The position numbers and the translations under genes are program-made. DNA of 30,587 nt from positions 1 through 30,587 of IMG/VR virus record IMGVR_UViG_3300046008_000503; one strand, given 5' to 3'. This DNA comes from a virus. This document shows, piece after piece, positions 2,722 through 26,203 of the stretch (the stretch's first letter is position 1; each line of letters opens with the position of its first letter). The notes beneath the pieces were generated by a model. The model was not told where the DNA came from. It saw only the letters and a list, made by a program, of their open reading frames with translations, and did no database searches.

Positions 2722-3405
2722 TTACTCCCACATGATGTTAATTGAACCTGCTGATGGAGTAGTATCGAACGTGTCCGTACCATTTACAGTGGTAACTGAA
2801 AGAGAATCTAATACACCTGCTAGAGTTTTAGAACCTGTGCAGGTAAATGAGTTACTTGCCGCATTATTTGTTCCGCATACCCCTGCGAATACATATGTAT
2901 TACCTGTTCCAATTTTTGTTATGGTATAAATTGCACCATGTGTGTTTGCGGAACTTCCTGAGTATGAACCTAAGAACCCTGTTGTGTTATTAACTGCGGC
3001 ATTAGCTATGCTTGTGGCTACTGAAGAATATCCTGTAGTTTCTAAAACACCACCAACACCAAGTCTTATTAAAAAGTTTGAAGTGCCACTTGTACTTACA
3101 CTATTCAAAGAAACTGTAATTCGTTTAGCCCATGATGGAATAACACTTGTAAATGGTATTGAAGTCTGTCCTGCACAAGTTACTTCTGAACCTATTGATA
3201 ACTTACTAGAGGTTAATGTTTCACCACTTGCTAATGTCACCTTACCATCACTCGCCACCGTTAAAATATCACCTAGCGAACCATCTGAGCCACGTGCGAG
3301 TTTTGCTGTGCCATCGTTATTGGCTGATAGTTGGAAGTTTTGGCTGTCAGTAGTTGACTTACCTATGGTGATTGCGTCTGTTTTTACACCTGATATGACT
3401 GGCAT
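2722..3405 (-). CDS. tail fibre-like protein with C-terminal tip module (paralogue B)
   Basis: This encodes 227 aa. The first about 70 residues are fibre-shaft-like (QNFQLSANNDGTAKLARGSDGS ... TVASDGKVTLASGE). The rest is a compact module: VTCAGQTSIPF, SWAKRITVSLNSVSTSGTSN, a variable middle, and an end TTVNGTDTFDTTPSAGSINI. The same module forms most of the neighbouring 196-aa protein, so the two genes are paralogues. GAGGG lies upstream of the ATG. The module resembles the terminal beta-sandwich of many phage fibres; receptor binding is inferred, not shown. Confidence 0.7.
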   Translation of the reverse strand: MPVISGVKTDAITIGKSTTDSQNFQLSANNDGTAKLARGSDGSLGDILTVASDGKVTLASGETLTSSKLSIGSEVTCAGQTSIPFTSVIPSWAKRITVSLNSVSTSGTSNFLIRLGVGGVLETTGYSSVATSIANAAVNNTTGFLGSYSGSSANTHGAIYTITKIGTGNTYVFAGVCGTNNAASNSFTCTGSKTLAGVLDSLSVTTVNGTDTFDTTPSAGSINIMWE

Positions 3406-3408
3406 TTG

Positions 3409-3999
3409 TTATCCCTCGTACATCACGTTAATTGAGCCTGCTGATGGTGTTGTGTCAAACGTGTCTGTACCGTTGACTGTTGTGATTCGTACTTGTGTTA
3501 ATGTTGCAGATAGTGTTTTAGTGCCTTTTGTTTCCATAACATAAACTACGTCATCCCTAGCAATACCACCGTTTGCAACCCAAGTATTACCTGATAGTCT
3601 ATTAATGACTACAGCACCGCTATAAGTACCTGTCGCAACATAAGTACCGTATAGCAAATATCCAATACCTGAATAAACTAAGCTACCTACTGTTGCTGTT
3701 GCAAAAGCAGCACTTGAGCCTGCATATCCAGTATTCTCAATACCGCCACTATCGCCAATTTGAATTAAGAAGTTAGAAGTTCCACTCACACTAATACCAC
3801 TAAACATCACAGTAATTCTCTTAGCCCAACTAGGAATGCCTGTGAAGTCTATTGATGTCTGTCCTGCACAGGTTACTGGAGTCATACTCTCAAGCGTGTA
3901 TGCTCTTGTTGTTCCTGTACCACCATCGGCTACCGCTAACGGGGTGGTTAAGTCTATTGAGCCTGTTTGTACTGATGTGCCTGATATTGTTGTAGTCAT
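3409..3999 (-). CDS. tail fibre-like protein with C-terminal tip module (paralogue A)
   Basis: This encodes 196 aa starting MTTTISG. I chose the ATG at 3999 rather than the one at 4014, because it overlaps the upstream stop (TAATG) and has GGAG eight bases before it. The first about 40 residues are linker-like (SIDLTTPLAVADGGTGTTRAY). The remainder is the CAGQTSIDF / SWAKRITVMFSGISVSGTSN / TTVNGTDTFDTTPSAGSINV module shared with the next gene. The centre, between the two conserved parts, differs most between the paralogues, as expected for a surface-exposed binding region. A role as a fibre tip subunit is inferred. Confidence 0.7.
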   Translation of the reverse strand: MTTTISGTSVQTGSIDLTTPLAVADGGTGTTRAYTLESMTPVTCAGQTSIDFTGIPSWAKRITVMFSGISVSGTSNFLIQIGDSGGIENTGYAGSSAAFATATVGSLVYSGIGYLLYGTYVATGTYSGAVVINRLSGNTWVANGGIARDDVVYVMETKGTKTLSATLTQVRITTVNGTDTFDTTPSAGSINVMYEG

Positions 4000-4991
4000 T
4001 AAGAAATACTCCATGTTGCGTTAGTTGGAACTGTCACGGTTACGCCTGTCGCTATTGATATAGCACCTGCTGAGATTGCATTTTTCACCTTACCTACTGA
4101 GTGTGGGACAGTACCTGCTGTTGTGATTGCCACCGTTGAACCACCACGAGTTGCTGAAACCATGAACGTGTTGGCTGTTAAGTTTGTCGCTATCACGTAG
4201 TACCCAGTAGCCGCTACTAAAGGTGCAGGTAGGTTTGCTGGAGTTGCGTTATAGAACTGTACTAACTGACCTTCTGTAAACCCGTGATTATTTAGTGTGA
4301 ATATGTCCGTACCTGCGTCAACCGTTACCCCTGATACCAAAGCACCTTGGCCGAGCGTGTAGTTGGTTGTAATTAGAGTGTCATTCTCTACAAATATGCC
4401 ATCGTTACCTGCGCCTGTAGCACCGCCAGAAACCTTAACCCATGAAGGTGCGAGAGTTGTACCATTACTTTGTAGAACATATCCTGCCGTACCATTAGCT
4501 AACATCGCTGTAGTATTTACTGCTGTTTGATATGGAATTGAACCGCCAAGACCACCAGAGATATTTGCAACTATTGTTTGAGATGGGTGTACATGATCTT
4601 GTCTAGCAGTTAATGTACTTGTACCTACTGCAGCAGTACCATTAATTAACGGTGCAACTGAAGCTAAACCGGTAATACTATTGAATGAAGTACCAGTTGC
4701 AGCACCAATATTACCACCAACAGTCGCCAAAGTTCCAGATGTAGGTAATGTCACATTTGTTGCTGCAGTAGCAGTTAATGTAATACTAAATGCACCAGAA
4801 GTGATTAACGAAGAACCTTGAGCAAGAGTAAGTGTTGCTGATGTTGTCGGAGCAGTAATTGTAACTTTATTGACTGTAGTTGCAGAAGCAACACCTAACA
4901 CAGGTGTAACTAATGTAGGTGATGTATTTAGTACAGCATTACCTGAACCAGTAACATTACTTATTAAGTCTGATGAAATTTTTGTTGTCAT
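3999..4991 (-). CDS. chimeric tail fibre protein with QDHVHP module
   Basis: This encodes 330 aa. Residues about 1-60 (SNVTGSGNAVLNTSPTLVTP) are a fibre-type repeat. About 63-136 carry the module TSGTLATVGGNIGAATGTSF ... TARQDHVHP, almost the same as part of the 929-aa fibre at 9726-12515. The HVHP word marks a domain border in many phage fibres. After it comes unrelated sequence (GGLGGSIPYQTAVNTTAMLA, then EGQLVQFYNATPANLPAPL and ANTFMVSATRGG, a phage structural motif) ending NATWSIS, a natural-looking terminus. GC content steps up after the module. AAAGGA precedes the ATG, and the stop overlaps the next start. It probably supplies the attachment end of the second fibre set (inference). Confidence 0.75.
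   Translation of the reverse strand: MTTKISSDLISNVTGSGNAVLNTSPTLVTPVLGVASATTVNKVTITAPTTSATLTLAQGSSLITSGAFSITLTATAATNVTLPTSGTLATVGGNIGAATGTSFNSITGLASVAPLINGTAAVGTSTLTARQDHVHPSQTIVANISGGLGGSIPYQTAVNTTAMLANGTAGYVLQSNGTTLAPSWVKVSGGATGAGNDGIFVENDTLITTNYTLGQGALVSGVTVDAGTDIFTLNNHGFTEGQLVQFYNATPANLPAPLVAATGYYVIATNLTANTFMVSATRGGSTVAITTAGTVPHSVGKVKNAISAGAISIATGVTVTVPTNATWSIS
4585..4803 (-). repeat. fibre module copy 1 (about 92% identical to copy at 10177)
   Basis: These 219 bp align without gaps to 10177-10395; I counted 18 mismatches by hand. The block encodes SGAFSITLTATAA through TARQDHVHP. It is a long enough stretch of homology for recombination between the two fibre cassettes. Confidence 0.9.
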
Positions 4992-7295: not shown

Positions 7296-7868
7296 CTAAA
7301 TAAAACTTAACCAACCTGTAACAATATATTTATCATTATTTGAAGGAATTCCTCTATGAGTAAATGTCCAATCGGCAGGCCAGATTAATGTTAATCCTTT
7401 TTGTGGTTTTACTTTAATTTTTTGATAAAGAAATTCTGTCTCTCCGGCATCATCAACATCATTTAGATATGTTAAAAAAACTAAATGTCTATTGTTAAGT
7501 TGACTATTTACTCCACTTCTTTCACAATGCCATCCAAAATACGCATCTCCGGCATTATAATGCTGGATATTAATATTCTCAAGATCTGCCCACTCTGCAG
7601 TATCTGCTGCTGATTTATATTTTTCAACATATAAATCAAGACATAACTGTAAATGGTTAATATATCTACAATATAAATCAGATTCCCTTGGTAAAATTAA
7701 ATCTTTTGATTTTTTAACACTAAAATTAACAACACCACCTGCAATTCCGTCTTGTTTGTTTGGAGACTGATTATGAAATCTAATTATATCTTCAAATAAA
7801 TAATTATCATTAAGATACCATCCACAAATGAAATTATCTAAATTATTTATAGTATGTTCTTTTAACAT
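7296..7868 (-). CDS. 2OG-Fe(II) oxygenase, prolyl-hydroxylase type (HxE variant)
   Basis: This encodes 190 aa from the ATG at 7868, chosen because it follows the TGA of the upstream gene by one base; a start at 7925 would overlap it by 56 bp. The C-terminal half shows the double-stranded beta-helix pattern of this superfamily: QHYNAGDAYFGWHCER with the first metal ligand pair H114 and E116, LVFLTYLNDV, ETEFLYQKIKVKPQKG, and WTFTHRG with the distal His at about 171, then a Lys at about 180 for 2-oxoglutarate and GWLSF. The usual HxD is HxE here, as in other phage members. The expected reaction is hydroxylation of a substrate with 2-oxoglutarate and O2; the substrate is unknown. The gene is strongly AT-rich and ends a run of assembly and modification genes. 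Confidence 0.8.
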   Translation of the reverse strand: MLKEHTINNLDNFICGWYLNDNYLFEDIIRFHNQSPNKQDGIAGGVVNFSVKKSKDLILPRESDLYCRYINHLQLCLDLYVEKYKSAADTAEWADLENINIQHYNAGDAYFGWHCERSGVNSQLNNRHLVFLTYLNDVDDAGETEFLYQKIKVKPQKGLTLIWPADWTFTHRGIPSNNDKYIVTGWLSFI

Positions 7869-7869
7869 A

Positions 7870-8391
7870 TCAAAAATCAAAATCAGCTGGCCTATTTGGC
7901 CAGACAATATTAAATGGAAATTCATCTTGATTAGTTATGTTTCTTAAACTTTCTCTATAATCAAGCCAAGCCTGCATATTATCTTTAATCGATTGGGGTA
8001 CATCAGGACTGAAAATAAAATCAGAATGACGCAACTCAGCATAGCGTCTATGCTTTTCTTTAGCTGTAGTTTCTTTTATTCTTAAATCAATTTCATCTTT
8101 TGTTGCATTTCTAATAGTAAAAGTTTGCTTCCAGACTCCATCTGAATTTCGCTGAACACCAACACTATCAACACTTTTATTATAAGGAACTTCAGGAGGT
8201 AAACTAAACTCATACACTCCATAATTTACTATCTCAACCTCCGATGGTATTGCTCTTTCTGAAAATTTAACATTTGGAAAAAGTCTTGGTAATGTTGAAA
8301 ACAAAACTGGCGGTGATTCCTCAATTGATCCAACAGCAACTTTTTCACCGAAATTATTTTCTTTTAATTTTATAACTAAATCTTGATTCAT
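7870..8391 (-). CDS. phage tail assembly chaperone-like protein (Phage_tail_APC type)
   Basis: This encodes 173 aa. The last about 65 residues match the tail-fibre assembly signature: RYAELRHSDFIFSPDVP, then QAWLDYRESLRNIT and FPFNIVWPNRP, compared with the family's 'R..LL..SDW...PD.P....WA.YR..LRDIP...FP..V.WP'. The N-terminal part (LFSTLPRLFPNVKFSERAIP, a VEIVNYGVYEF segment) resembles the variable half of such proteins. Its ATG overlaps the stop of one oxygenase gene (ATGA), and its stop is one base before the other. In related phages it helps fold or attach fibre proteins, so the upstream fibres and glycine-rich adhesin are likely clients (inference). Confidence 0.75.
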   Translation of the reverse strand: MNQDLVIKLKENNFGEKVAVGSIEESPPVLFSTLPRLFPNVKFSERAIPSEVEIVNYGVYEFSLPPEVPYNKSVDSVGVQRNSDGVWKQTFTIRNATKDEIDLRIKETTAKEKHRRYAELRHSDFIFSPDVPQSIKDNMQAWLDYRESLRNITNQDEFPFNIVWPNRPADFDF

Positions 8392-8915
8392 AATTTAATA
8401 TCCTTGTTACATATAGTTTTAACAACAAAATTTATAACAACCCTACGTTTATTTTTAAGTGGTGGTGTTGATGAGTGTATCAAATTAGAGTCAAACACTA
8501 CAATTCTGTTTTCTTTAGGGGAAATCTTATCTCCGTAAGATAAGAATAAAGTATCTCCATCACTGTCATTAACATAAAATAAAATGCTTTTATAACCGTC
8601 TATATCACAATCAACATGAGCAGATTCATCAATTATTGGTGACTGAGGTGTTAAAAGATTAGCCTTTACTCTTAATATATTAGTAACTTTAAACCCAAAC
8701 TTTTCTTCCGTAAAACTAAGTATAGGTTTAATTGAATTGAAATAATCTGAAGTTATTTTTCCTTCCCTAAAAAATGTATGAGTAAATTGAAATAATTCAT
8801 TATTTCCTTGTGAAACTACAAAATCATTAAAGTACCAAGGAAAGTAATCACAAAGAATAATTTTTTTTATCTCTTCATTTATATTAACAGGCAAAAAATT
8901 ATCACAAATTATCAT
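8388..8915 (-). CDS. 2OG-Fe(II) oxygenase (HxD type)
   Basis: This encodes 175 aa from the ATG at 8915; a TTG two codons upstream is a less likely start. Metal ligands are seen at H100 and D102 in ESAHVDCDIDGY and H147 in DSNLIHSSTPP, with Arg157/158 (KNKRRVVINF) in the place that binds the 2-oxoglutarate carboxylate. The order 'AHVDCD - LFYVND - GDTLF - RIVVFDSNLIHSS - RRVVINFV' is that of small phage and bacterial 2OG dioxygenases. It follows the adhesin gene by 2 nt and overlaps the fibre chaperone gene by 4 nt (ATGA). The substrate is unknown; a virion protein is an attractive possibility from context. It is distinct from the HxE oxygenase two genes on, not a recent duplicate. Confidence 0.8.
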   Translation of the reverse strand: MIICDNFLPVNINEEIKKIILCDYFPWYFNDFVVSQGNNELFQFTHTFFREGKITSDYFNSIKPILSFTEEKFGFKVTNILRVKANLLTPQSPIIDESAHVDCDIDGYKSILFYVNDSDGDTLFLSYGDKISPKENRIVVFDSNLIHSSTPPLKNKRRVVINFVVKTICNKDIKL

Positions 8916-8917
8916 AA

Positions 8918-9724
8918 TCAAGGTGCCGAATTTAGTGGGTAAGATTTATCAACACCACCGAAAATAATTCTGACACCTCCATAACCACCAGTTCCTTTAC
9001 CGGTAGTCTGATTGGTGTTATCACCGTGACCACCACCACCACCACCATGTAGACCACCATTACCACCACCACCATTACCACCACCTGAGCCACCAAAGCC
9101 TGGATCTCCAGTTGAAGCACCACCGAGACCACTCGGACCTTGAACTATTAATCCAACACCACCACCACCACCAGACTGATTTGTAGATGAACCTCCTGCG
9201 CCACCACCACCACCAGCTCCAGAAGCACCACCACCATTTGTTGCTATTGCATCACCACCATCTCCTGCATATCCTGCAGCTCCTCCACCAGCACCCTCAC
9301 CATCACCGCCAAAACCACCGCTATATTTAACAGCACCAATCCCAGCAGATGCATTTCTAGCAGCATTACCTAAATAACCACCTGCTGCATATATTAGAGT
9401 AGTACCACCTCTTAATATATAAGAGGCACCCCCAGCTTCTGATACTCCAGGATTTTTAGGAGCACTACCGACAACAACAGTAAGAGTTTCATTTGGTGTT
9501 ACTGGTATATTGTTTGTGTATGTGAGTGCTCCTCCCATTCCACCATAATAAGGTGTAGTTGATGTGCGCTCATTTGATCCACCACCCACACAAACAGCAG
9601 AAATAGTAGTTATGTCGGCTGGAACAACAAAACTATAAGATCCTGGATTAATATACATTGCTTCACCGAATTCTGGTATATTATTGTACATCGCACCAAT
9701 AAGCATTTGAATTATTCCACTCAT
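8918..9724 (-). CDS. glycine-rich tail fibre adhesin
   Basis: This encodes 268 aa. The N-terminal about 90 residues are a beta domain (GSYSFVVPADITTISAVCVG ... TPNETLTVVVGSAPKNPG). From about 100 to 250 it is dominated by glycine runs (GGFGGDGEGAGGGAAGYAGD, GASGAGGGGGAGGSS and others), and it ends GGYGGVRIIFGG plus SYPLNSAP. This layout, with 'GG.RI.(W/F)G....(F/Y)P' at the end, is shared by many phage fibre tips, and polyglycine-helix bundles are known from the gp38 adhesins of T-even phages. It probably contacts the receptor. Its ATG is one base after the stop of the long fibre gene, and an oxygenase gene follows. A minus-strand frame at 8932-9132 is only a shadow of the GGT repeats. Confidence 0.8.
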   Translation of the reverse strand: MSGIIQMLIGAMYNNIPEFGEAMYINPGSYSFVVPADITTISAVCVGGGSNERTSTTPYYGGMGGALTYTNNIPVTPNETLTVVVGSAPKNPGVSEAGGASYILRGGTTLIYAAGGYLGNAARNASAGIGAVKYSGGFGGDGEGAGGGAAGYAGDGGDAIATNGGGASGAGGGGGAGGSSTNQSGGGGGVGLIVQGPSGLGGASTGDPGFGGSGGGNGGGGNGGLHGGGGGGHGDNTNQTTGKGTGGYGGVRIIFGGVDKSYPLNSAP

Positions 9725-9725
9725 A

Positions 9726-12515
9726 TTAACTTAATCCTGCACCAGAAATAAACCATGTATCAGTATCTACTTTCATTAATGTTGCCATTCCTCTAATTTC
9801 CATAGTACCACCAGAAGCCCAAGCTGCTGAAGTACCTGCTTTATATACAGTAAGTGATGTTGTAGTAAATGTAATTGCTGTGGTACCATTATTAACTATA
9901 GATATTGCAGTACCTATTGGGAAAGCAACAGAAGCATTAGTAGGAACTGTAATTGTTTGAGCACCAGTATTGGCAGAATAAACATGTTTACCGTTATCTG
10001 CTAGTGCAAGAGTATAGTCAACACTTTGAATATTTTGTGGTACATTTCTATAACCTATATCAACAGAACCTACAGTACAACCTGTTAAATCTAAAGTAGC
10101 ACTTGCTCTGTTAATTGCAACTGATGTAGTACCAATAAACATTGTTTGACCAACGGCAGCCCTTGATGTATCTGTAGGGTGTACGTGATCTTGTCTAGCA
10201 GTTAATGTACTTGTACCTACAGCAGCAGTACCATTAATTAACGGCTCAACTGATGCTAATCCAGTAATGCTATTGAATGATGTACCTGTTGCAGCACCAA
10301 TGTTACCACCAACAGTCGCCAAAGTACCTGATGTAGGTAATGTCACATCAGTTGCTGCAGTTGCAGTTAATGTAATACTAAACGCGCCAGAAGTGGCTAA
10401 TGTTGATCCTGTACCTATTGTAAGAGTACCAGTTGATGAAGTGATACCTAAACCATTTACGGAAGTAATACCAGTCAAAGCTATTGCAGAACTTGTTCTG
10501 TTTAATGCAACTGATGTAGTTCCTATAAAATGAACATCATCAACATAAGCTAATGTCTTTCTAGTAGGACCAGCAGATTGAGTAATGAATAAGTTTGTAC
10601 CATTCCATTCAACAGCACCAGCACTTGCTGCAGTCAAATTAGTTCCAGATGCAAATCTTAGTGGAGCAATTGCTGTAGTACCAGTTGCTAATTGTAGACT
10701 TCCTGATAATGTACCACCTGCAATTGCTAATTTCTCTGAATCTAATTCTTGTAATGCAGTTTGAACTGTAACAGCCGCAATATTACCAACAGGTGTCACT
10801 TCGGTTAATGATGCTAATTGAGTATATGAGTTAAAGCCATCAACCTCAACCATAACAACAGAACCTGTACCAGGAGCAGTATTTAATGTAACGGCATAAG
10901 CTTTAACAGTACCTGTATCAGCAACTAAAGTAATTGATCCTGTTGTTGCACAAGTATAAGAGAAGTGTGTTGCATCAATAAAAGTAATAGGAACATACGA
11001 TGCGGAACATGTTGCATTTGTAGTTACTACCATATAAGCATAATCACCGGCGATTAAACCATGAGCAGCAGATGTTGTTACTGTAACTACAAAGCCAGTT
11101 CTTGCAACCTGTGTAATTGTTGCTGATTTATATGTTTCAGAATATTCAGAGTCAAATTGTCTAACACCATTAATGAAGACTTTTGTTTGTGAAACACCAG
11201 GAGCATAAGCATAAATAGCAGGATAATAAGTTTGTGAAGCACCAGCAGTTGTAAATTTTCTAGTAGTAACAATTGATGTACCTTGAGTAGAACTTCCACC
11301 TCCACCACCTGCGGCAATCCATGAGAATGAAGAACCAGATGTACTTAGTACATAGCCAGGAGTTCTACCTGCCGCAGGTAGTAAGTTGTCTAATGCATTA
11401 GACGCAGATGATGCACCAGTACCACCTGCAGTAATAGGTACTTGTCCTGTAATAGAAGTACCTGCAACAGAACCAGCAGTACCGTCAATTGAAATACCAG
11501 TAAGAGTTTGTGCAGTAGTTGTTCTATTAAGAGCAATTGCCGTAGTACCGATATAAACTGTTGAGTTACCTAATACAGCACCAGGAATTGTACCTGTTAA
11601 GTTTGCTGCAGTTAAGTTAGTTAAATTTGCACCAGAAACAACACCAAAATTAGCATTCCAAGTACCATTATTTATAGTTCCTACAGACTGAAGACTCGAA
11701 CTAACAATACTAGTTCCTAAGTTAGCCTGACTTAATACAGCTTGTCCATTAAGTCTAAATACTTTACCAAAAGCAAGATTTATATCTTCAGAAGATGTCC
11801 ATCCATTAGTGCTTCCCCAAGAAATTGTCTTATCAGTTGAACCCTTAACTGTAATACCACCACCAGACGCATTAGCATCTGTAGGACTAGCAACAGCATT
11901 TAATTCTATATTATTATCATCTACTGTATATGTTGCAGTATTAATTGTTGATGTTGTACCATTAACAGTTAAGTTACCAGTTACAATAATATCAGTACCG
12001 AATGTTTGAACACCGGTAAATGTTTGAGCAGCATCTGTTCTTGCAATAGTTGCAGATGTGCTAGGGAATGTCATTACTGTACTATCAGTACCAGTAAGGG
12101 TAATACTATTATTAGCAGTAAATGTTTTACCTGTTGCAATATTTAAAGCATTAGATCCATTAGCAGTAATAGTTAATCCATTAAATAGAGAACTTGTTAA
12201 GTTACCCGTATTAGGATTAAATGTAAGTTTTGTACTTGAAAGTTTTAATGATGTTGCAACACCAGATGATACTGTTGCAAATGTAGGGTAATATGTCGCT
12301 GATGTAGATGTATCATCAGATAGTGTAGCGCCACCTACAGGAGACCAAGCAAGAGTTGAACCAGAATAACCTTCAAATCTATGATTAGTAAAGTCATATC
12401 TTAAACGACCTTCAGAATCAGAAACTCCACCACCGGTTGAATTAAATAAAATACCATCAGTGCCAGCTACTTGTATACCGTTTTTGACTACGAAGTCAAT
12501 ATTTGAGATTGCCAT
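9726..12515 (-). CDS. long tail fibre protein (929 aa)
   Basis: The protein is rich in Thr, Ser, Ala, Gly and Asn with short beta repeats throughout, typical of fibre shafts. The N-terminus (ISNIDFVVKNGIQVAGTDGI) is of the kind found in baseplate-attached fibres of marine T4-like phages. Words such as GTTAIALNRTTTAQTLTGIS and GTTSVALNRTSSAIALTGIT are repeated. Near the middle, STQGTSIVTTRKFTTAGASQ starts a more globular insert. Near residues 705-780 lies the TARQDHVHP module also found in the fibre at 3999-4991. It ends DTDTWFISGAGLS. AGGGA precedes the ATG and an AATAAATA octamer lies 39 nt upstream. It carries no signal peptide or enzyme motif. It probably pairs with the glycine-rich adhesin encoded next. 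Confidence 0.8.
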   Translation of the reverse strand: MAISNIDFVVKNGIQVAGTDGILFNSTGGGVSDSEGRLRYDFTNHRFEGYSGSTLAWSPVGGATLSDDTSTSATYYPTFATVSSGVATSLKLSSTKLTFNPNTGNLTSSLFNGLTITANGSNALNIATGKTFTANNSITLTGTDSTVMTFPSTSATIARTDAAQTFTGVQTFGTDIIVTGNLTVNGTTSTINTATYTVDDNNIELNAVASPTDANASGGGITVKGSTDKTISWGSTNGWTSSEDINLAFGKVFRLNGQAVLSQANLGTSIVSSSLQSVGTINNGTWNANFGVVSGANLTNLTAANLTGTIPGAVLGNSTVYIGTTAIALNRTTTAQTLTGISIDGTAGSVAGTSITGQVPITAGGTGASSASNALDNLLPAAGRTPGYVLSTSGSSFSWIAAGGGGGSSTQGTSIVTTRKFTTAGASQTYYPAIYAYAPGVSQTKVFINGVRQFDSEYSETYKSATITQVARTGFVVTVTTSAAHGLIAGDYAYMVVTTNATCSASYVPITFIDATHFSYTCATTGSITLVADTGTVKAYAVTLNTAPGTGSVVMVEVDGFNSYTQLASLTEVTPVGNIAAVTVQTALQELDSEKLAIAGGTLSGSLQLATGTTAIAPLRFASGTNLTAASAGAVEWNGTNLFITQSAGPTRKTLAYVDDVHFIGTTSVALNRTSSAIALTGITSVNGLGITSSTGTLTIGTGSTLATSGAFSITLTATAATDVTLPTSGTLATVGGNIGAATGTSFNSITGLASVEPLINGTAAVGTSTLTARQDHVHPTDTSRAAVGQTMFIGTTSVAINRASATLDLTGCTVGSVDIGYRNVPQNIQSVDYTLALADNGKHVYSANTGAQTITVPTNASVAFPIGTAISIVNNGTTAITFTTTSLTVYKAGTSAAWASGGTMEIRGMATLMKVDTDTWFISGAGLS
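10177..10395 (-). repeat. fibre module copy 2 (about 92% identical to copy at 4585)
   Basis: Gap-free counterpart of 4585-4803, encoding the same SGAFSITLTATAA to QDHVHP stretch. It lies toward the C-terminal part of the 929-aa fibre. Confidence 0.9.
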
Positions 12516-12553: not shown

Positions 12554-12561
12554 TATTTATT
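12554..12561 (-). promoter_or_regulatory. T4-type late promoter-like octamer
   Basis: AATAAATA on the minus strand overlaps the stop of the 969-aa fibre gene and lies 39 nt upstream of the ATG at 12515, almost the same spacing as the octamer before 7126. The 44-bp gap, unusually long for this gene block, fits an internal late promoter. Confidence 0.5.
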
Positions 12562-15469
12562 AGATTGCTAATAACTCTGCACTGAATTTAAATGTAGTTG
12601 ATGTTGCTGAAGCAGGTGTAACTAATACTTGCACGTTAGTAGAACCATCATAACCACCAGCAATTGTGAATAATGGAGTAGATGATACTGTACCATATTC
12701 AGAGATAAAGACATTAGGTGTTGCATTGCCGTCTTTAACAATTGAGATCTTTGTAATATGTACATCAGTACCAGAAGTTGCTTTAATAACATATTCAGCA
12801 GAGCCATAAGTTGCCGCAGCGAAAGCATCAACAGGAACTTCTGTTGTATCAGTAGTTGTAATTGAACCTGTTCTCTTAGTTACTTGACCAAATGTAGTAT
12901 TATTTGCTAAGTTTAATTGTCCTGTAAATGTCTTATCACCAGTAATAGTTTGAGCACCACCAAGAACAACAACATCAGTACCTACATCAATTGCATCAGC
13001 ACTTACAACAATTCTATTAGCAGTTCCTACAACATCAATTGATGAACCAGACTTAACTAAACCATTACCTGCATTTACGTTAGTACCAGCAACTTCCCAT
13101 TTTAATAATGTAGTACCTAATACTACCGGTGAAGCAGAATTTAGATATGAATTACCTCCATATAATGTACCAGCATTAACAGATACAAGCGCGTTGTTTA
13201 ATTCAGCATTAGTATCAGCATCATATGCTCTTGTTAGAATCCATGGAGTGCCACCAGAACCAACATCACTTACAAAATAGATACCGTTAGCCAAATCCGA
13301 AGGAGGTGAAGTAGCACCACCATTTTGATCTTTTACTAAAATTCTATCTAATACAGAATATGAAACACCATCAATAGTTGGTAATACACCATTTGAATTT
13401 GCTGTTAAAGTACCGGCACCATTATTATATGTTGCTAATAGAGCTGTTACTGTTGCTCCCTTAACAGTTAACTTAACTTGGAAGCCACCGGTTTTAACAT
13501 CAACATATTCTTTATTTGCAGCATCAGTATTTGATACTGGAGCATCTATAAGAGTTAATTTTACTGTAGTTGGAACTGTAAATGATGTTGCAACAGTACA
13601 AGCAGTTAATGTTTTACTTGAAAGAGTTGAAGCAATATCTGCAGAAGGAATACTTGTTATTAAAGCTGAAGTACCAGTTGTATATTTTAAATAACCAGAA
13701 GATGCAGAATAGTTTTGTCCAGTACCACCATATTGAGATGATATTGCAGTACCATTCCAGATACCAGAAGTAATAGTACCTACAGAGTTACCTGTGCCAG
13801 AAAGAGTAATATTTCCAGTTACACCTAATGTACCTGCAATAGTTGTATTACCAGATGCCGCAACAATGTTGAACTTATTAGTATTAATATCAACATTGCC
13901 AGTAACAGCAAGTGTTGAACTTAATGTAGTTGCAAGTGTAACACCTAATGTACCTGCAATAGTTGTATTACCAGATGCCGCAACAATGTTGAACTTATTA
14001 GTATTAACATTTACATTGCCGGTTACATCTAATGTACTTGAAAGAGTAGTTGCTAAAGATACACCTAATGTACCTTGAAGTGTTGCATTACCAGCAGCAT
14101 TGAATGCACCAGTAGTAGCTGTGATGTTGAATTTGTTTGTATTGACTGCTACATCACCAGTAACACCAAGAGTACCTGCAATTGTAGTATTACCTGATGC
14201 TGCTGTGATGTTGAATTTGTTTGTATTGACTGCTACATCACCAGTAACACCTAGTGTTGAACTTAATGTAGTTGCTCCAGTAACACCAAGAGTACCACCA
14301 ATAGATCCAGCACCAGCAACATTAATTAAACCACCAATCCATGTTGCACCAGAAATACCTACACCGCCAGTAACAACTAATGTACCAGTTGCTGTTGTAG
14401 TTGATGCAATACCGTCAGTCATTAAGATACCAGCTGTTGCTTTTGTAGAAGAACTAGTTGATCTTAAAGTTAATGTACCAGATGCAGCAATAGAACCTTG
14501 AACAATTGGAGATGTTGTATCTGTAGTAACAGTTAAATTTGTACCTACATATAATTTCTTAGCAATACCCACACCACCAGCAATAATTACAGCGCCAGTA
14601 ATGCTTGAACTTGAATCAGTTACATTATTTAATGTATTAATACCAGAAGTTGTAACATTACCTGTAATACCTAAGCCAGAAGCTGATGTAAGAGATAAAA
14701 CATTTGAACCAGTAGTTAGTAATGTATCACCAACAACATCTAGTGGAACTGTTGGAACTGCTTTGTTAATACCAATTCTATTATTTGTACCATCAATTAC
14801 TAAAGTATTTGAGTCAAAGTTGATTGTAGAACCAACAGCAATAGTAGTTGCATTAGAGAATGTCCAAGCACCTGATGCTACAGTAACAGTATCACCAATA
14901 GCATTACCTAAGTTAACAGGTCCATTAAATGTTGATGTAGTACCATCTGCAACAGTTAAACCACCATTAGCGGTAATCAAACCAGAGATAGTAGCAGTAC
15001 CGGCAGACACAGTTAAATTAGCAGCAATATCCAATGCACCAGTCATTGTATCACCACCGCGGTATAACTTAGATTCTTCTAACTTATTAATCTCATTAAC
15101 TATTGTTGTTTTTGCTGGATATGTTGCAACACTAAAACCTGTCTCTGTTGAGATCATAGTCACTGATGATACAACACCAGAACCATTCACTGTATTTACA
15201 CGGAAGATTGCTTTGTTTAAGTTAGCATTTTCAATTTCAACTAGATCATATTTCTTATAACCAGTACCACCAGAACCAATAGATGATGTTGCAACTGAAG
15301 TTGAACTTAGAGTTAAAACGTTGATTGTTAAGCCAGAACCACGACGATAAAGTAAATCAATACCTCGGTCACTAAGTCTTACCAAATCACCTTGTTCTTG
15401 GGCAACTTGATTGCTCTTGTTTTGCCATCCGGCGAATGTATCATCTAAGAGAATTTTCTGAATTGCCAT
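12560..15469 (-). CDS. long tail fibre protein with internal repeats (969 aa)
   Basis: The N-terminal about 75 aa (QKILLDDTFAGWQNKSNQVA ...) are distinct and probably attach to the virion. A GSGY-type unit follows (SIGSGGTGYKKYDLVEIENA), linking it to the baseplate repeat proteins. After GGDTMTGALDIAANLTVSAG, a classic phage fibre motif, the shaft contains several units of the type TLGVTGDVAVNTNKFNIT. The C-terminal third has KEYVDVKTGGFQVKLTVKGA, a segment typical of the distal part of such fibres, with WILTRAYDADTNAELNN and a final beta domain ending FKFSAELLAI. The ATG overlaps the upstream stop (TAATG). Role: shaft of a long or side fibre; that it pairs with the 929-aa protein is inferred from adjacency. 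Confidence 0.8.
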   Translation of the reverse strand: MAIQKILLDDTFAGWQNKSNQVAQEQGDLVRLSDRGIDLLYRRGSGLTINVLTLSSTSVATSSIGSGGTGYKKYDLVEIENANLNKAIFRVNTVNGSGVVSSVTMISTETGFSVATYPAKTTIVNEINKLEESKLYRGGDTMTGALDIAANLTVSAGTATISGLITANGGLTVADGTTSTFNGPVNLGNAIGDTVTVASGAWTFSNATTIAVGSTINFDSNTLVIDGTNNRIGINKAVPTVPLDVVGDTLLTTGSNVLSLTSASGLGITGNVTTSGINTLNNVTDSSSSITGAVIIAGGVGIAKKLYVGTNLTVTTDTTSPIVQGSIAASGTLTLRSTSSSTKATAGILMTDGIASTTTATGTLVVTGGVGISGATWIGGLINVAGAGSIGGTLGVTGATTLSSTLGVTGDVAVNTNKFNITAASGNTTIAGTLGVTGDVAVNTNKFNITATTGAFNAAGNATLQGTLGVSLATTLSSTLDVTGNVNVNTNKFNIVAASGNTTIAGTLGVTLATTLSSTLAVTGNVDINTNKFNIVAASGNTTIAGTLGVTGNITLSGTGNSVGTITSGIWNGTAISSQYGGTGQNYSASSGYLKYTTGTSALITSIPSADIASTLSSKTLTACTVATSFTVPTTVKLTLIDAPVSNTDAANKEYVDVKTGGFQVKLTVKGATVTALLATYNNGAGTLTANSNGVLPTIDGVSYSVLDRILVKDQNGGATSPPSDLANGIYFVSDVGSGGTPWILTRAYDADTNAELNNALVSVNAGTLYGGNSYLNSASPVVLGTTLLKWEVAGTNVNAGNGLVKSGSSIDVVGTANRIVVSADAIDVGTDVVVLGGAQTITGDKTFTGQLNLANNTTFGQVTKRTGSITTTDTTEVPVDAFAAATYGSAEYVIKATSGTDVHITKISIVKDGNATPNVFISEYGTVSSTPLFTIAGGYDGSTNVQVLVTPASATSTTFKFSAELLAI
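13821..14007 (-). repeat. 67-bp exact direct repeat, period 120 bp, in fibre gene
   Basis: 13821-13887 and 13941-14007 are identical and lie 120 bp (40 codons) apart. Each encodes the VNTNKFNIVAASGNTTIAGT type of unit. This is exact DNA identity, beyond what protein constraint needs. Confidence 0.85.
14118..14252 (-). repeat. second direct repeat pair in fibre gene, period 84 bp
   Basis: About 50 bp at 14118-14168 recur at 14202-14252, 84 bp (28 codons) apart, encoding GVTGDVAVNTNKFNIT. The third base choices differ from the 13821/13941 pair, so the two pairs arose in separate duplication or conversion events. Confidence 0.8.
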
Positions 15470-15684
15470 TATTTAGCCTTTGATAGTAGTTCTAGTAACA
15501 TGCCCTTAATGTCGGACATATCTTTCTCAATCTTATTTATTCTTTCTTCATTACTTTTCTTTTCAGCCAAGATTTGTTTCTGTCTTTGCATATATTGTTC
15601 ATATTTACTAGAATCAGTATCTATAATTGCTGTGGTAAAAAGATCCCGTTTAAGAGATCTTTCTTCTTTCATATTAAGTAACAT
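15469..15684 (-). CDS. small coiled-coil protein, unknown
   Basis: This encodes 71 aa, highly charged. Residues about 25-70 (SSKYEQYMQRQKQILAEKKS, then ERINKIEKDMSDIKGMLLEL) are a continuous helix with heptad-like hydrophobics, so a coiled coil. Both ends overlap neighbours as TAATG, placing it under translational coupling between the 878-aa structural protein and the 969-aa fibre. A second ATG at codon 5 (MKEERS) could be the true start. Position suggests a connector or accessory of fibre attachment, but no family function is known to me. Confidence 0.6.
   Translation of the reverse strand: MLLNMKEERSLKRDLFTTAIIDTDSSKYEQYMQRQKQILAEKKSNEERINKIEKDMSDIKGMLLELLSKAK
15534..15541 (-). promoter_or_regulatory. 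weak late promoter-like octamer inside coding sequence
   Basis: AATAAATA on the minus strand lies 65 nt before the ATG of the 969-aa fibre gene. It is inside the 71-aa gene, so codon content (Arg-Ile-Asn-Lys) may explain it. Confidence 0.2.
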
Positions 15685-18320
15685 TAAGTTGCCAGTGCAA
15701 TGATTCGAAGATCTTTAACTACTGGAGGGATACATGAATTAGTACCACGTAAAAGAATCTTAACAGAGAATGTTTTAAATTCTGGCACTGGAGTATCTTC
15801 TGTATTTCTAACCTCATAAGTCAAGTCAAAGAATTGATTTGGGGTTGATGAGTACACAGTAGGAGTTGAAGTCATATCTAACTTGAACCAAGGGTAGTCA
15901 TGAATATCTTTAGACTCACCTACCGGTACAGTTCTGTAATAAACATCAATTGCATTACCTTCAGCAATAACACCTGCCAACATAACTCTAATAGATGATG
16001 CTGGATTTGCTAATGAAATTGGTCTTACATTATATCTTGCAGAAACAATGCCGCCGCCAGGAATTGCTTCAGATTCCCAATCTGTAGTTGGATGTGCTCC
16101 ATCAATATCAGTAGGATCATCTAATAAGTTAGATCTTGTGATAAGTCTTGATGCTTGTAAGTCAAACATTGGGGCAACAAACTCAGAATCTGTTCTTAAT
16201 GTAGTTGCAATTCTAGTTGAAATAGAACCTTTTAGAGCAGGTGACTTAAATGATGTAGCATGAGAAGTAACAACTCTAGGAGTAGGGAATTTTACCTCTA
16301 CCATATTAGGAATTTCAATGAATGTAGTATCACCAACTAATTCTGGTTGATTACCATGAATACTTGAGTATGAAATACCTTTTAATTCCGTTGTTAGTGA
16401 TGTACCTGTAACTTCATTATTAACACCAACAAATCTTACAGATTCATATTTGATGTTAGGTTCAAATGCACAAGATGCAAGTTCAACAAAACCATCTTCT
16501 GTTGCAAGAATGTTATTAGTTAAGATACCATCTGGATTAAGTTCAAGTTCAAATGAGTAAGCATCTGCATAAGTAACTTCTTTAAAGCCACTTAAATTAG
16601 ATTCACCAATACCATTTAATAGATATTCATAACCAGCAGTTCTATTTGAATTCCAACCTGTAAATGAACCTACTAATGGTACTTGTGCTGTACCTGCAGG
16701 AACATCAACTGTAATTGTAGTAAACATGCCTTCACGTAAGCCGTGATCATTAGCGAACACTCTAATTCTAGATGTGCCTGCATAAGTTTCAATCATTGTG
16801 TCGTAAGCAACACGGCGATTTGGCCATAGAGGTGCAAGCATTAACTTAGCAGAAGCACCTTTAGTAAACTTAGCTCTGTTAATAACAAACTTAATATCCG
16901 CTAATTGATCTGCAGTCCAAGTCAGATCATTTTGAGATACAAACATTGATCCCAAGTATGGTTGTTTAGCCATAGTTTGAGTTGAGTTAAGTAAGAACTC
17001 ACCAAGTCTTGAGATATATGCATTATATTGCATAGAGTCTGATTTTAATACAAAACAATACTCAGTTAAGTTACTTAAGAAAACAGGTTTATTAAACACA
17101 AACTTAGTTCTTAGTGTTGAGTCTGCTGAAGTAACAGCATCAGTTACAACAGAGTTTGAAATAACATCTGTACCAGGATAGCCATTAACCATATTTCTTA
17201 TTTCAAGCATCACAGGAACACCTGATGTATCTACAGTTCTGAAATAAACATCAATAGATGTAATATACATACCTGCTTCAGAATTATCACCACAGTCAAT
17301 TAAGAATGATTGTGCTAATGGATCATAATAATTTCTTACTGTATATGTAGAAACTTTAGTATCTGTAGTTGAGAATCTTGTTTGTGTAATTAATTGTCGT
17401 TGATAGACTTCGGCACCGGCAGAGAAGTAATCTGCTTTTGATGTAGTTGTTGCTGTATTTTCATCTTGTGGGTTATCTGTTAGGACAAATGTTCTTGTGC
17501 CAACTTTAAAATGAACGGCGGGTGTGTTAGGAATATTAAACTCACCAGAAATAGTACCATCAGCACTTGTAATTAATGTTGAACCCCAAGCAGATCTTTC
17601 TCCAGCGGAATTAATTGATAGACAATAGTTAGAAACATCAACACCATCAAAAATTGGATAAACTCTAGTATTTGGTCGCATTCCCTTAGCAGAGAATGAA
17701 ATGATTCTTGACATCATTGACTGCTGAATTTGAACAGAAGCAACTTTTGTCTCAGCATTAGTACTTAAGAAGTTATTAGTTGTTGTTTGTGTAGCTGTAA
17801 CTTGAGATACACTTAAAAGAAGACCTTTACTTGATCTCGTGGTAAGCACAGACCCATTTGCAGGAATTGCCGGAGTTGATGATGTTGATACTAATGTTGT
17901 ACTTGAGGATTTCGCTGTTGTTTCACCTACATTAGGAAGTAGTAGCTTTAATACATTTTCTGCTGTTGGTGTAGGAGCAATTTCAAATAAAGATGCATAA
18001 GACAAAGTAGGATCTGTTGAACTTACTCTGCTAAGAGCATTAGTAACTCTTGTTGATGCGATACCAGTAGGTGAGATAGTAATATCAGATGTTGTTAAAC
18101 CTGAACGACCAACGGTTCTTAATGAATGCCAGTGATGATCATTATATCTAGTATCAGCATCATAGACCCAATTTGAAAGTCTATTACTTTTCTGAAGTTT
18201 AGCATCAACCCTTTGAAGAATATTTCTATTACTTGGGATTGGCTCACTATTTAAAGCTAAACTTAATCTAATGTTTGAAGTTTTTACCGTTCCAAGTAAA
18301 TCATCAATCTGTTGACTCAT
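15684..18320 (-). CDS. large virion structural protein (baseplate/tail, 878 aa)
   Basis: The C-terminal two thirds begin near YDPLAQSFLIDCGDNSEAGM, followed by YITSIDVYFRTVDTSG, VMLEIRNMVNGYPGTDVISN, and later MAKQPYLGSMFVSQNDLTWT. This 'DPLAQ ... ITS.D.FF ... IR....GYP ... QPY.GS.F.SQN...W' pattern is shared by large structural proteins of marine T4-like phages, where it often sits at the end of a bigger protein next to a DUF4815 domain. Here it is a separate gene directly downstream of the DUF4815 gene, with a 35-bp gap. The N-terminal part starts with a helix (NILQRVDAKLQKSNRLSNWV) and beta-rich repeats. AAGGA precedes the ATG. It probably belongs to the outer baseplate; the exact T4 counterpart is unclear. 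Confidence 0.7.
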   Translation of the reverse strand: MSQQIDDLLGTVKTSNIRLSLALNSEPIPSNRNILQRVDAKLQKSNRLSNWVYDADTRYNDHHWHSLRTVGRSGLTTSDITISPTGIASTRVTNALSRVSSTDPTLSYASLFEIAPTPTAENVLKLLLPNVGETTAKSSSTTLVSTSSTPAIPANGSVLTTRSSKGLLLSVSQVTATQTTTNNFLSTNAETKVASVQIQQSMMSRIISFSAKGMRPNTRVYPIFDGVDVSNYCLSINSAGERSAWGSTLITSADGTISGEFNIPNTPAVHFKVGTRTFVLTDNPQDENTATTTSKADYFSAGAEVYQRQLITQTRFSTTDTKVSTYTVRNYYDPLAQSFLIDCGDNSEAGMYITSIDVYFRTVDTSGVPVMLEIRNMVNGYPGTDVISNSVVTDAVTSADSTLRTKFVFNKPVFLSNLTEYCFVLKSDSMQYNAYISRLGEFLLNSTQTMAKQPYLGSMFVSQNDLTWTADQLADIKFVINRAKFTKGASAKLMLAPLWPNRRVAYDTMIETYAGTSRIRVFANDHGLREGMFTTITVDVPAGTAQVPLVGSFTGWNSNRTAGYEYLLNGIGESNLSGFKEVTYADAYSFELELNPDGILTNNILATEDGFVELASCAFEPNIKYESVRFVGVNNEVTGTSLTTELKGISYSSIHGNQPELVGDTTFIEIPNMVEVKFPTPRVVTSHATSFKSPALKGSISTRIATTLRTDSEFVAPMFDLQASRLITRSNLLDDPTDIDGAHPTTDWESEAIPGGGIVSARYNVRPISLANPASSIRVMLAGVIAEGNAIDVYYRTVPVGESKDIHDYPWFKLDMTSTPTVYSSTPNQFFDLTYEVRNTEDTPVPEFKTFSVKILLRGTNSCIPPVVKDLRIIALAT

Positions 18321-18355
18321 CTTTATTCCTTAATACATCTATAATGTTTAATTTA

Positions 18356-21300
18356 TTACTTATTAATGATCTGAAGTGTTGTTGATGTACTTGTTGCAAT
18401 ATCAATATTAAAATCAGGTGATAATTTCAAATCACCATTCCATTGGAAGATAGCAAATGGATTCAAGTTCATTGAAGATGTCGCATAAGGATTCATCACA
18501 ACCGGTACTTCTGTAAACTTCAGTGTAACAATACCATTTTCAATATATGTAGTATCATATGTTGTTGAAGTAGATTCATTTTGAATCAAGAATAACTCAT
18601 GGGCCTCAAGTGTACTTGGAACATTCAATGTATGAGTTGATGGATCTAATTTAACATTATTAAACTCATCTTTATCTAGTACATTTAATGAATCGAAGTT
18701 ATCAACAATGAAACCAGATTTATATCTATCAAGACCTGTCTCAGCATCAGTAATATTATAATCAGTTGTTGACTTCTCAAGCATATTCAATAGAGTATAT
18801 TCTTCAAGTCTATCAATACGTTTATCAATTTGATGGATCTCAGCCATTGTGTAGCCGGGACGGTCAACAGTCTCAACTCGAATATCATCAACATTATATG
18901 TATAAGGTGGTAATTCTAATTTGAATACAACCATTTGCTTATCAGAATCTAATACCTTAGGAAACTCTGGTTTTGCTGATGAGAATCCTTTATGTAACTT
19001 GAACAAACCTTCTGTATCAAGAGTAATAACATCTTTTCTTGGTAAGAAGTGAGAGTAATTAAATGTAATATCAGAGCCAGGACATACAGGATTCAATAAT
19101 GGAGTACTTAAGTTATTGTAATAAGGAGATACAAATCTTCCTCCAATATTTTCAAACCCAACATTTAATACAATGTTTGAGTATTTAAGATCTGGAGTTG
19201 TACCTAGTGTGAATTTTGAGTTAGATTCAATTGAAGCAACAGTATTAATTGCATTGCCTTGGAATATAACATTTTGACCAACACTCAATTCTCTCGTTGA
19301 ATATCCATTTGCTAAAGTAACTACTTTACTTCTTGCAACAATAGTAGCTCCTGACGTCATCGCATTGGCAGCATTAGCTACTAATGTTATTGTTGTGTCA
19401 GGACCAACAGATATACTTTGTACAGTACCAATTATTAAGGAGTTGCTAAGATTGCCATTATATAACACATCTCCAACAGATATTTTGCCTCCGTTAGCAT
19501 TTAAAACTACTGTCGGAGATCCAGTTGTAACATCAGCGGTAATTGTAGTCTGAAATCCCATAGACCCATAGACATTCATCGCGCTGTCTTTAACGGACGG
19601 TCTAAAGTCTAAGCAGTCTTGTAATCTATATGTTTGACCAGAACTTGATGTAAATGTAGGAATGAATGGTAAATAATCAACACCAGAATCTTGAGTAATA
19701 CCTGAGTATGAATTTACACTGTAAAAATCACCCTCTCCAGGCTCAAGATGTTGAAAGTAGATATCTAATGTACCAGTAGGAGAATAAGCACCAGAACGAA
19801 GTTTAATTGTACCTACTTCATATTGACTATCTCTTTGACCATTATCAAGAATATAGTTTTTAGAAATATCAATTCTTGCAGATAATTGAGCATTTGCAGA
19901 ATTTGTGGTTGCATCAGCACTAACAGTAATAGTTCTATCAACTGTATTAGTTTCTGTTACAAATGTTCCTAATGGTAAGCCCGTACCAAAGATATATGTA
20001 CCTAGTTTAACATTATCAACAATATCTGTGGTTGAATCAACTGCTATAATATTTGATCCGGCAGTTAATGAACCGTTGAATGGTGTATCTTTAGTTCTCT
20101 CAAACACCCAATTTAAAGCATAGATATCAGGTTGACGTAAACTCATAATTCCAGCAGGAGTTGTAGTTTCTTTAGATGAGACTAATGTTTTAGTTTTCTC
20201 TTTTAAGTTCTTCTCAACTTTTGCAATAACTCTAATACCAGTATTTACAGTACCATAAGCAGCATCTGTTGTTGTAATAGTAACACTTGTTGTAGTAGTT
20301 CTATTAGTTGTAGTTGAAATTAGACCATTTAAGATCTTACCTGAGAATGTATGCCAGATAATAAAGTTCTGCTCATTCAATACAGATGGGAATTTCTCAC
20401 CATCAGTAAGATTGAACGTTGCTGTGTAAGGACCAGCACCAGTAAATGATAGATTAGCCTCTTTATAGATTGAGTAAGAAAGACTTGATACTTCAGATAC
20501 TGCTGAATTAGGTAGAGGTTGTAATAATGTTACACCTTGGTTATTGAATGTTGATAGTCTTTGAGTTGACTGAGTGGTGAATGTAGTTGCTCCACTTGCA
20601 CCAGCACCAGAAACTTTAAATGATCCTGCACCTTCAACCCAAGCTTTGCCAGGAGCTTTCTTAGCAAAGATGATATTGTTATTAAGATCATGTAACACAA
20701 CAACGGCTTGATTCAAAAGAGGTGACTTCATTGATTGAATCATTGCACCATTTTGGACAACACCTTCATTCAAACTTGGAATATAGCCAGAAAGAATATC
20801 ACCACAAACATGATCTGAGTTAAATGTAGTTGATGAGATCATTTTCCATGAAGCAACATCGGTAAGTTTCTTACCTAGATCCATGTCAATATCAGTAATA
20901 TTAATTCTGAAGATACCTTCACCAGAACCAACAAATACAGATTCACCATTACCAATAGTAATTGGAGCACTTAATGTTGCAACGTTACCATTAACAGCAG
21001 TAATATAAACTCCTGCTAAAGTACCAGTTGAGTTTGAGATGTGTTGATATAGATCAAAATCAGTTAATGTTGAGAAACCAACACCAGGAGATCCATTAAG
21101 AGTCAATGTTGCTGATGCAGTGATAGCACCACTAACTTTTAGAATTCTTTGTTCTTTTGCTAATGAACCTGTTAAATAGTCACTTGCTAATACTTTAGCA
21201 TAACCTATAATATTACCATTTGGTGAACCAACATCAACTATTGAGTTATCTCTAAGTTCAATAATACTTAGTGGTGATGGAATACCATAGTTATTAGCAG

Positions 21301-25427: not shown

Positions 25428-25438
25428 TTGTTAACCTA

Positions 25439-26203
25439 TTAGAATTCAATAACTATTGAGATTGCTTCTTTTTGTGTTGGTGCTCGTTGAGTAAGTTTTC
25501 TATAATCTTTATAGAAGATAAAACCAGAGTTTGGTGATATTTCACTTACTGAATATGTTGATGCTGTACATAATGTTGTGTTATTAGATTCAACAGGTGA
25601 ATCGATAAGGAAGATCTTTCTGTAAGATATACTATTTGAAAAATCAGGAGCGTCAGTATCACTCAATGTAGCATTTATTGCAAGATGTTTGCACTGTAAT
25701 GTTTTGCATGGATCATATGAATCTAATAGTGGATTTGTATCTCCTGTCCAACCATATACTGGTAACCATGATGTAGTTAAGAAGTCTATAATTTGAGTAT
25801 TACCTACTGTATATAAGAATTGCCACTGATAAGTACCTATAGTTTGTGGAGTAGTTTTATTTGTACTTGTTGGTTTTGTAGTTGATGCAACTCCAGGAGA
25901 GTTCTTACATAGATACACATTATAGTCTTCTGTCAAGACATAATTACCCGTTACATAAGTCTTACCAGAAGTCCAATCAACACGAGGAACAACCTTATGT
26001 ATGTCAGAATAATTGACTTTCTTAATAGCTATTAAATCAGCAATATCTTGAGTATGATTATTAAAGCTAGGAATATCTGGTACTTGCTCATCTGCCCAAG
26101 CTGTTGATTTCCCAATACCAAGATAACAATGACCTTGAAGAATATACTGCTTAAAAGCAAATACTTGAGCAAGACTTTGGTAGTTAGTTACGATTGCTGT
26201 CAT
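25439..26203 (-). CDS. gp8-like baseplate wedge protein, shortest paralogue (254 aa)
   Basis: The start TAIVTNYQSLAQVFAFKQYI then CYLGIGKSTAWADEQVP, VPRVDWTSGKTY, VYLCKN, YQWQFLYTVGNTQIIDFL, FSNSISYRKIFLID, and end FYKDYRKLTQRAPTQKEAIS follow the gp8 pattern without the GSGY insert. It is shorter than T4 gp8 (334 aa) and may be a minimal core. Its ATG overlaps the stop of the giant repeat protein (TAATG). Three gp8-like proteins in a row could fill different wedge positions or form heteromers; this is inference. Confidence 0.8.
   Translation of the reverse strand: MTAIVTNYQSLAQVFAFKQYILQGHCYLGIGKSTAWADEQVPDIPSFNNHTQDIADLIAIKKVNYSDIHKVVPRVDWTSGKTYVTGNYVLTEDYNVYLCKNSPGVASTTKPTSTNKTTPQTIGTYQWQFLYTVGNTQIIDFLTTSWLPVYGWTGDTNPLLDSYDPCKTLQCKHLAINATLSDTDAPDFSNSISYRKIFLIDSPVESNNTTLCTASTYSVSEISPNSGFIFYKDYRKLTQRAPTQKEAISIVIEF

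Follow-up and report, generated by a model that had tools for sequence, protein, structure and literature searches.

In marine phages, genes for 2-oxoglutarate (2OG)-Fe(II) oxygenases number among the most frequent of those that lack an explanation, and one cultured phage carries 24 of them (PMC9602691). In the accessible portions of the literature, the phage enzymes have so far been read as agents of DNA repair, of 2OG/nitrogen signalling or of general metabolism (PMC9146016; PMC3037559; PMC9602691; PMC9599517), and HTVC023P-type phages are described as carrying, next to “ferrochelatases”, a set of eight 2OG genes that are co-located and non-orthologous (PMC9599517, in part). The cyanophage and pelagiphage genes treated as “auxiliary metabolic genes” (AMGs) in these accounts (PMC3037559; S-SCSM1, PMC9602691; HTVC023P-type phages, PMC9599517) belong to the families that concern us here, phrog_61, phrog_81 and phrog_274, and come from the same phages; the available sections of the three papers make no link between them and a glycine-rich adhesin module.

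Protein hydroxylation by viruses through P4H-type enzymes is activity of a known kind. The viral collagen prolyl hydroxylase vCPH of the chlorella virus PBCV-1 (5c5t) and bacterial P4H (P. putida, 4j25/4iw3; Bacillus, 3itq/5hv0) share a predicted fold and a 2OG-Fe(II) site with Ox1, one of the two oxygenases of the locus described below. Ox1 differs from them in sequence (about 15-17% identity), in having an HxE motif and in that its activity is predicted, and its gene lies beside a phage glycine-rich protein and a fibre chaperone rather than collagen. On the adhesin side, the T4-like Salmonella phage S16 encodes a Gly-rich tip protein after its fibre genes, as our virus does. This protein, gp38 (6F45), is a polyglycine-II sandwich that combines Gly-rich stretches with variable loops, and the Gly-rich strands of the S16 adhesin tip form polyglycine II helices that resemble collagen polyproline II (PMC6851490, in part); hydroxyproline stabilises collagen (PMC3368898). 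A search for direct homology to gp38 was negative, neither our Gly-rich protein nor a Gly-rich profile giving a PDB sequence match to 6F45, and the accessible S16 account mentions no oxygenases. The collagen-like fibre proteins of phages (EPclPs of E. coli prophages, PMC3368898) are likewise Gly-rich and fibre-associated. Their authors considered bacteria and viruses to be without prolyl hydroxylases for collagen-like proteins, whereas the locus described here has putative hydroxylases and no long Gly-X-Y repeat. Phage 2OG oxygenases are well known, and their proposed link to an adhesin is not a proven new system. Our search of the open literature, with subscription journals largely outside its coverage, turned up no paper describing hydroxylation of a phage fibre.

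Layout of the gene block

The whole stretch of DNA considered here, referred to as the window, spans 30.6 kb of a virus of bacteria and carries T4-like phage baseplate and fibre genes. Judged by its gp8-type baseplate wedge, the phage is nearest to Kyanoviridae-type phages. A tightly packed minus-strand run comprises two long fibre genes followed by genes for the Gly-rich protein, the oxygenase Ox2, a chaperone and the oxygenase Ox1:

12560-15469, minus strand: fibre or structural protein of the same gene run, 969 aa (open reading frame; phrog_697 structural protein, 1e-23)
9726-12515, minus strand: long fibre protein, 929 aa (open reading frame; matches to phrog_30158 and phrog_6002, virion structural protein)
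8918-9724, minus strand: Gly-rich protein, putative fibre-tip adhesin and putative substrate, 268 aa, 31% Gly (open reading frame; phrog_4474, 1e-44)
8388-8915, minus strand: Ox2, 2OG-Fe(II) oxygenase, HxD...H...R, prolyl-hydroxylase-like predicted fold (phrog_274, 2e-42; PF13640, 2e-5)
7870-8391, minus strand: tail-fibre assembly chaperone (Phage_tail_APC, PF16778, at 2.5e-11; tail fibre assembly families of PHROG at 6e-11 to 1e-10)
7296-7868, minus strand: Ox1, 2OG-Fe(II) oxygenase, HxE...H...K, viral-collagen-prolyl-hydroxylase-like predicted fold (PF13640, 6e-10; phrog_61, 5e-42)

The original prediction had described two oxygenases flanking a fibre chaperone in an overlapping operon just after a Gly-rich adhesin, and all four minus-strand open reading frames are present in that arrangement. 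Ox2 and the chaperone overlap at ATGA, and the remaining junctions span 1-2 nt: the preferred start of Ox2 (ATG at 8915) lies 2 nt past the TGA of the Gly-rich gene, and that of Ox1 (ATG at 7868) lies 1 nt past the TGA of the chaperone. A single nucleotide separates the Gly-rich gene from the long fibre gene upstream of it (9726-12515), whose product is a possible alternative substrate for the oxygenases. The chaperone assignment passes the curated cut-off of PF16778 (43.7 bits versus 26.6).

The Gly-rich gene directly follows the fibre genes. The identity of its product as an adhesin is one that we infer, the match to Gly_rich_2 (PF21722) being below threshold (15.5 bits, cut-off 24.3) and phrog_4474 being a PHROG labelled as of unknown function; a relative 53% identical to it (locus L081) passes the same PF21722 cut-off at 31.9 bits. 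The protein has X-Pro-Gly prolines at residues 27 and 92 (both NPG) and 208 (DPG). Single-protein viral scans with the Gly-rich protein and with the chaperone of the window returned no confirmed relatives, both being too diverged or of too low complexity for such scans, and family alignments were therefore used in the comparisons below.

Several features of the surrounding structural genes were also recorded. Three successive minus-strand genes at 22468-26203 (543, 442 and 254 aa) all match phrog_438, a baseplate wedge family, and are apparently a triplicated gp8-type protein. Two adjacent genes at 15684-22459 (878 and 1367 aa) match separate parts of the large cyanophage family phrog_358 and represent a structural protein that has been split or fused. 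A 262-nt module is shared at 86% identity between two fibre genes (4585-4846 and 10177-10438), a sign of module exchange inside the fibre cluster, and the adjacent genes at 2722-3405 and 3409-4014 have the appearance, by eye, of tandem fibre-tip paralogues.

Families and predicted folds of the two oxygenases

With the preferred ATG starts, the catalytic residues fall exactly where they had been predicted, at H100, D102 and H147 with R158 in Ox2 and at H114, E116 and H171 with K180 in Ox1. The H/E/H/K set of Ox1 is invariant across 52 aligned sequences, and in Ox2 the H/D/H triad is invariant across 32, with R158 conserved in at least 90%; neither is therefore a degraded enzyme. The two belong to separate PHROGs (phrog_61 and phrog_274), which rejects a recent duplication and bears out the view that they are not recent duplicates. 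The PF13640 match of Ox1 is over the cut-off and that of Ox2 just below it. On Pfam, invariant residues and confident predicted models that match structures of the family, both are members of the 2OG-Fe(II) oxygenase superfamily.

Structure models were built from the window and IMG/VR rows only, and both were confident (AlphaFold pLDDT 94.2 for Ox1 and 91.5 for Ox2). When compared with solved structures by Foldseek, the Ox1 model was closest to PBCV-1 vCPH (8.6e-11, TM 0.69/0.72), followed by P. putida P4H and PHD2. The best matches for Ox2 were PHD/PHD2 (7.6e-7, TM about 0.6), with P. putida P4H also found, so that its similarity to prolyl hydroxylase structures is lower than that of Ox1. Of the 50 top-ranked PDB structures listed for each enzyme, almost every one was a P4H/PHD prolyl hydroxylase, and neither AlkB nor TET appeared among those 50 for Ox1 or Ox2. 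By sequence, the best PDB match of Ox1 was a bacterial P4H (1.5e-5); Ox2 had no significant sequence match in the PDB, and for this enzyme structure comparison was therefore needed. Against predicted viral proteins, the Ox1 model matched P4H-like proteins as well as 2OG oxygenases of phages and giant viruses. The closest fold relatives of both modelled enzymes are prolyl hydroxylases, as are the sequence relatives of Ox1 only, and structure prediction thus agrees with the proposed direction. The predicted folds support a peptidyl hydroxylase activity, although a prolyl-hydroxylase fold leaves the substrate unfixed. The canonical HxD iron motif of prolyl hydroxylases is present in Ox2, whereas Ox1 has an HxE that is invariant in its family.

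Members of phrog_274 are named “DNA endonuclease V” (denV) in many phage records and once “tail fiber protein”. The PHROG label of endonuclease V was ruled out for Ox2, as its motifs and model are those of a 2OG oxygenase. For a defence role, PADLOC returned just a generic “2OG, Cas-associated” model, which we do not count as evidence.

Recurrence beside glycine-rich proteins and their proline content

The co-occurrence of oxygenases and adhesin in relatives, proposed earlier as a check, was positive in both bait directions. For the Gly-rich bait we used two alignments, one built from oxygenase-adjacent and the other from oxygenase-free members, so that their biases were opposed. These yielded 90 non-redundant loci, comprising 33 with an oxygenase within 3 kb, 33 with none in a flank of 1.5 kb or more, and 24 truncated by contig ends. 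Oxygenases were therefore found within 3 kb at 33/66 informative loci, compared with 6/49 around ribonucleotide reductase, a cyanophage housekeeping bait (Fisher p = 2e-5, for related loci and for sets that differ in habitat). In about equal amounts of DNA, 116 oxygenase genes surrounded the first bait and 27 the second. In the reverse direction, 77 new loci found with Ox2 of the window type had a Gly-rich gene within 4 kb in 47 cases, a chaperone-like gene in 52 and at least two oxygenases in 66; for the 80 loci found with Ox1 the corresponding counts were 34, 40 and 65. A scan of genome contigs with the Gly-rich alignment gave six loci, none with an oxygenase array.

The cassette recurs in many unrelated aquatic phages in the order Gly-rich protein, chaperone-like protein and one to eight oxygenases, and dozens of Ox2-bait loci share the order Gly-rich, Chp, OxF, Ox2, OxE, OxB, OxC. 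The chaperone position is occupied by PF16778 in the window and by phrog_7759 in marine relatives, and the array oxygenases are diverse in family (PF13640, PF13759, OxC). Two loci, L007 and L081, have the window's own gene order, with proteins that are each 42-53% identical to their counterparts and with L081 deviating in its first oxygenase and in a small intervening gene, while L309 and L310 preserve the order in part, with a 120-aa gene ahead of Ox2. The window does hold two oxygenases, but to speak of a “pair” understates the system, since relatives hold arrays of up to about eight. Most of the oxygenase loci from the Gly-rich bait form a single clade on the chaperone tree.

Among named phages, the T4-like S-SM1, S-RSM4 and Sf-CH11 have a fibre gene, a Gly-rich gene and then oxygenases. 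In the pelagiphage podoviruses HTVC023P (cultured) and 023Pt_psg01, Gly-rich gp60-62 or two structural genes precede Chp, OxF, OxE, OxB and OxC, and 023Pt_psg01 additionally has Ox2 between OxF and OxE. The module is thus shared between phage types, a distribution not readily expected of a lineage-bound passenger. At comparable sites, ACG-2014e encodes a Gly-poor protein and no oxygenase, and Sf-CH1b has a single oxygenase-like gene together with a Gly-rich one.

Gly-rich proteins also differ in composition according to their neighbours. In an enlarged comparison of 105 oxygenase-linked with 33 unlinked loci, part of the linked set having been found by oxygenase bait, proline made up 5.8% of linked and 2.7% of unlinked Gly-rich proteins; the set from the Gly-rich bait by itself showed the same trend (5.6% versus 2.7%). 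More than 4% proline was present in 93/105 linked and 3/33 unlinked proteins, and Pro-Gly occurred 1.66 versus 0.37 times per 100 aa, a 4.5-fold difference. X-Pro-Gly is the commonest proline context in the linked proteins, and two motifs are nearly confined to them: GNPGG (50/105 versus 1/33) and PPVSP (35/105 versus 0/33). An effect of GC content was ruled out, as the linked loci have lower GC and their other encoded proteins are lower in proline. The linked proteins are richer in lysine too, but lysine, unlike proline, tracks the lower GC. Few independent lineages underlie the proline contrast, however, and a phylogenetic artefact is not rejected: among four supported independent pairs, 3.2-3.5 agree and 0-0.1 oppose (p = 0.125 at best by sign test). 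The Gly-rich family to which the window protein belongs shows no such contrast, its enterobacterial phage members without a nearby oxygenase model match having 2.5-6.1% proline, and one locus with four oxygenases (L141) has a Gly-rich protein of 2.2% proline. Within these bounds, the Pro-Gly enrichment seen in the sequences is suggestive of a proline substrate.

Proposed function and competing explanations

It seems somewhat more likely than not that these four genes constitute a cassette for fibre-tip maturation that hydroxylates the adhesin, probably on prolines. In this model, the phage would make long fibres and a separate Gly-rich tip protein, with a small assembly chaperone occupying the fibre-chaperone position and working with the cassette. 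The two oxygenases would hydroxylate the tip protein, or the adjoining fibre protein, during infection and before or during assembly. Ox1, most likely P4H-like, would target exposed prolines, mainly in X-Pro-Gly, in the loops between Gly-rich stretches, while Ox2 would be a second enzyme of prolyl-hydroxylase fold with a site or residue of its own. The polyglycine II of the S16 adhesin tip resembles collagen polyproline II, and hydroxyproline stabilises collagen. Hydroxylation could stiffen such strands; the outcome would be either stiffer polyproline-II-like Gly-rich strands or altered receptor-binding loops. The Gly-rich protein as substrate, proline as target residue and any effect on host binding are each presumed from these comparisons. 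Co-occurrence, the predicted folds and the Pro-Gly content all fit the earlier suggestion of fibre or adhesin hydroxylation, which is tempered by the presence of oxygenase relatives away from fibres.

Those relatives bear directly on the competing explanations. The closest relative of Ox1 (L001, 55%) lies between uvsX and a gene for a DnaB-like replicative helicase, others lie near a UvsW-like helicase gene (L012) or after an SbcC-like gene (L062), and in S-RIM2 and S-BM1 relatives of Ox2 lie next to hli and psbA. The Ox1 tree requires 16 changes of fibre context, at least seven of them on supported branches; the window enzyme falls in a poorly resolved group holding both contexts, its nearest neighbour by path being the fibre-linked L007. 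Recruitment of oxygenases beside adhesins has therefore happened repeatedly, but family membership alone is uninformative on substrate, and independent movement of the oxygenases, named beforehand as evidence against the proposal, is observed in part, for relatives of both enzymes. This leaves room for DNA or host targets. Were the oxygenases enzymes for the repair or modification of phage nucleic acids, DNA or RNA, their position in the fibre region would be incidental. The replication and repair neighbours of Ox1 relatives, the “DNA endonuclease V” name of the Ox2 family and the DNA repair role proposed for phage 2OG oxygenases near uvsX/uvsY/uvsW in the available parts of PMC9146016 and PMC3037559 all accord with this. 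We nevertheless consider it quite unlikely, as the models match prolyl hydroxylases, with no AlkB or TET among the 50 best matches listed, the endonuclease label is at odds with the conserved HxD...H site and fold, and DNA repair fails to predict repeated siting right after Gly-rich and chaperone genes across phage types.

It is also unlikely, if slightly less so, that the enzymes hydroxylate a host surface, a lipid or a small molecule, or deplete 2-oxoglutarate, as passengers in a hypervariable region beside the fibres. Modulation of nitrogen signalling through 2OG was suggested by Sullivan et al. (PMC3037559, in part), the AMG regions with hli/psbA also hold oxygenases, and arrays may include Trp-halogenase-like flavoenzymes. 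Passengers would not, however, be expected to keep a fixed order behind the Gly-rich and chaperone genes across many contigs, nor to be accompanied by Pro-Gly enrichment in the linked Gly-rich protein only. The presence of several non-orthologous enzymes in one array suggests that they have separate sites and do not simply consume 2OG in bulk. Hydroxylation of virion proteins at something other than Gly-rich proline, such as Asp, Asn, Lys or Arg, or on the upstream long fibre proteins, appears improbable. The HxE of Ox1, the diversity of array families, the lysine enrichment and the proline-poor protein of L141 are in keeping with it, but lysine follows GC where proline does not, and the best predicted folds for both enzymes are those of prolyl hydroxylases.

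The recurrence of the same gene block suggests, from sequence comparison, that phages may chemically finish their host-recognition protein. If part of the oxygenases do finish the adhesin, the long-standing “auxiliary metabolic gene” puzzle becomes a question of virion assembly, and host recognition may depend on the oxygen, iron and 2-oxoglutarate supply of the infected cell. A broader and rather doubtful extension of the maturation model is that a widespread, horizontally spread operon is dedicated to oxidative, post-translational tailoring of the receptor-binding tip. Its non-orthologous 2OG oxygenases, between one and eight in number and at times joined by a flavin halogenase-like enzyme, would act on different residues of a polyglycine-type adhesin, providing a genetically switchable chemical layer of host recognition.

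Several oxygenase arrays (among them L098:4860-6017, L033, L005 and L225:7220-8776) contain flavin tryptophan-halogenase-like genes, in Sf-CH11 close to the Gly-rich gene, and these genes possibly represent a second tailoring chemistry. A 382-aa protein with an Ox1-type domain and an extra N-terminal part is encoded between Gly-rich and gp13-like genes (L003:2980-4128). Finally, a recurrent array member named “ferrochelatase” (phrog_2954; L011:5366-6016, L109:8569-9210 and relatives) has no ferrochelatase Pfam match and no PDB sequence match, and carries an invariant HxD...H (H110, D112, H163). From its sequence it is probably a further 2OG oxygenase, which would account for the constant 2OG-oxygenase neighbours of the “ferrochelatases” in PMC9599517.
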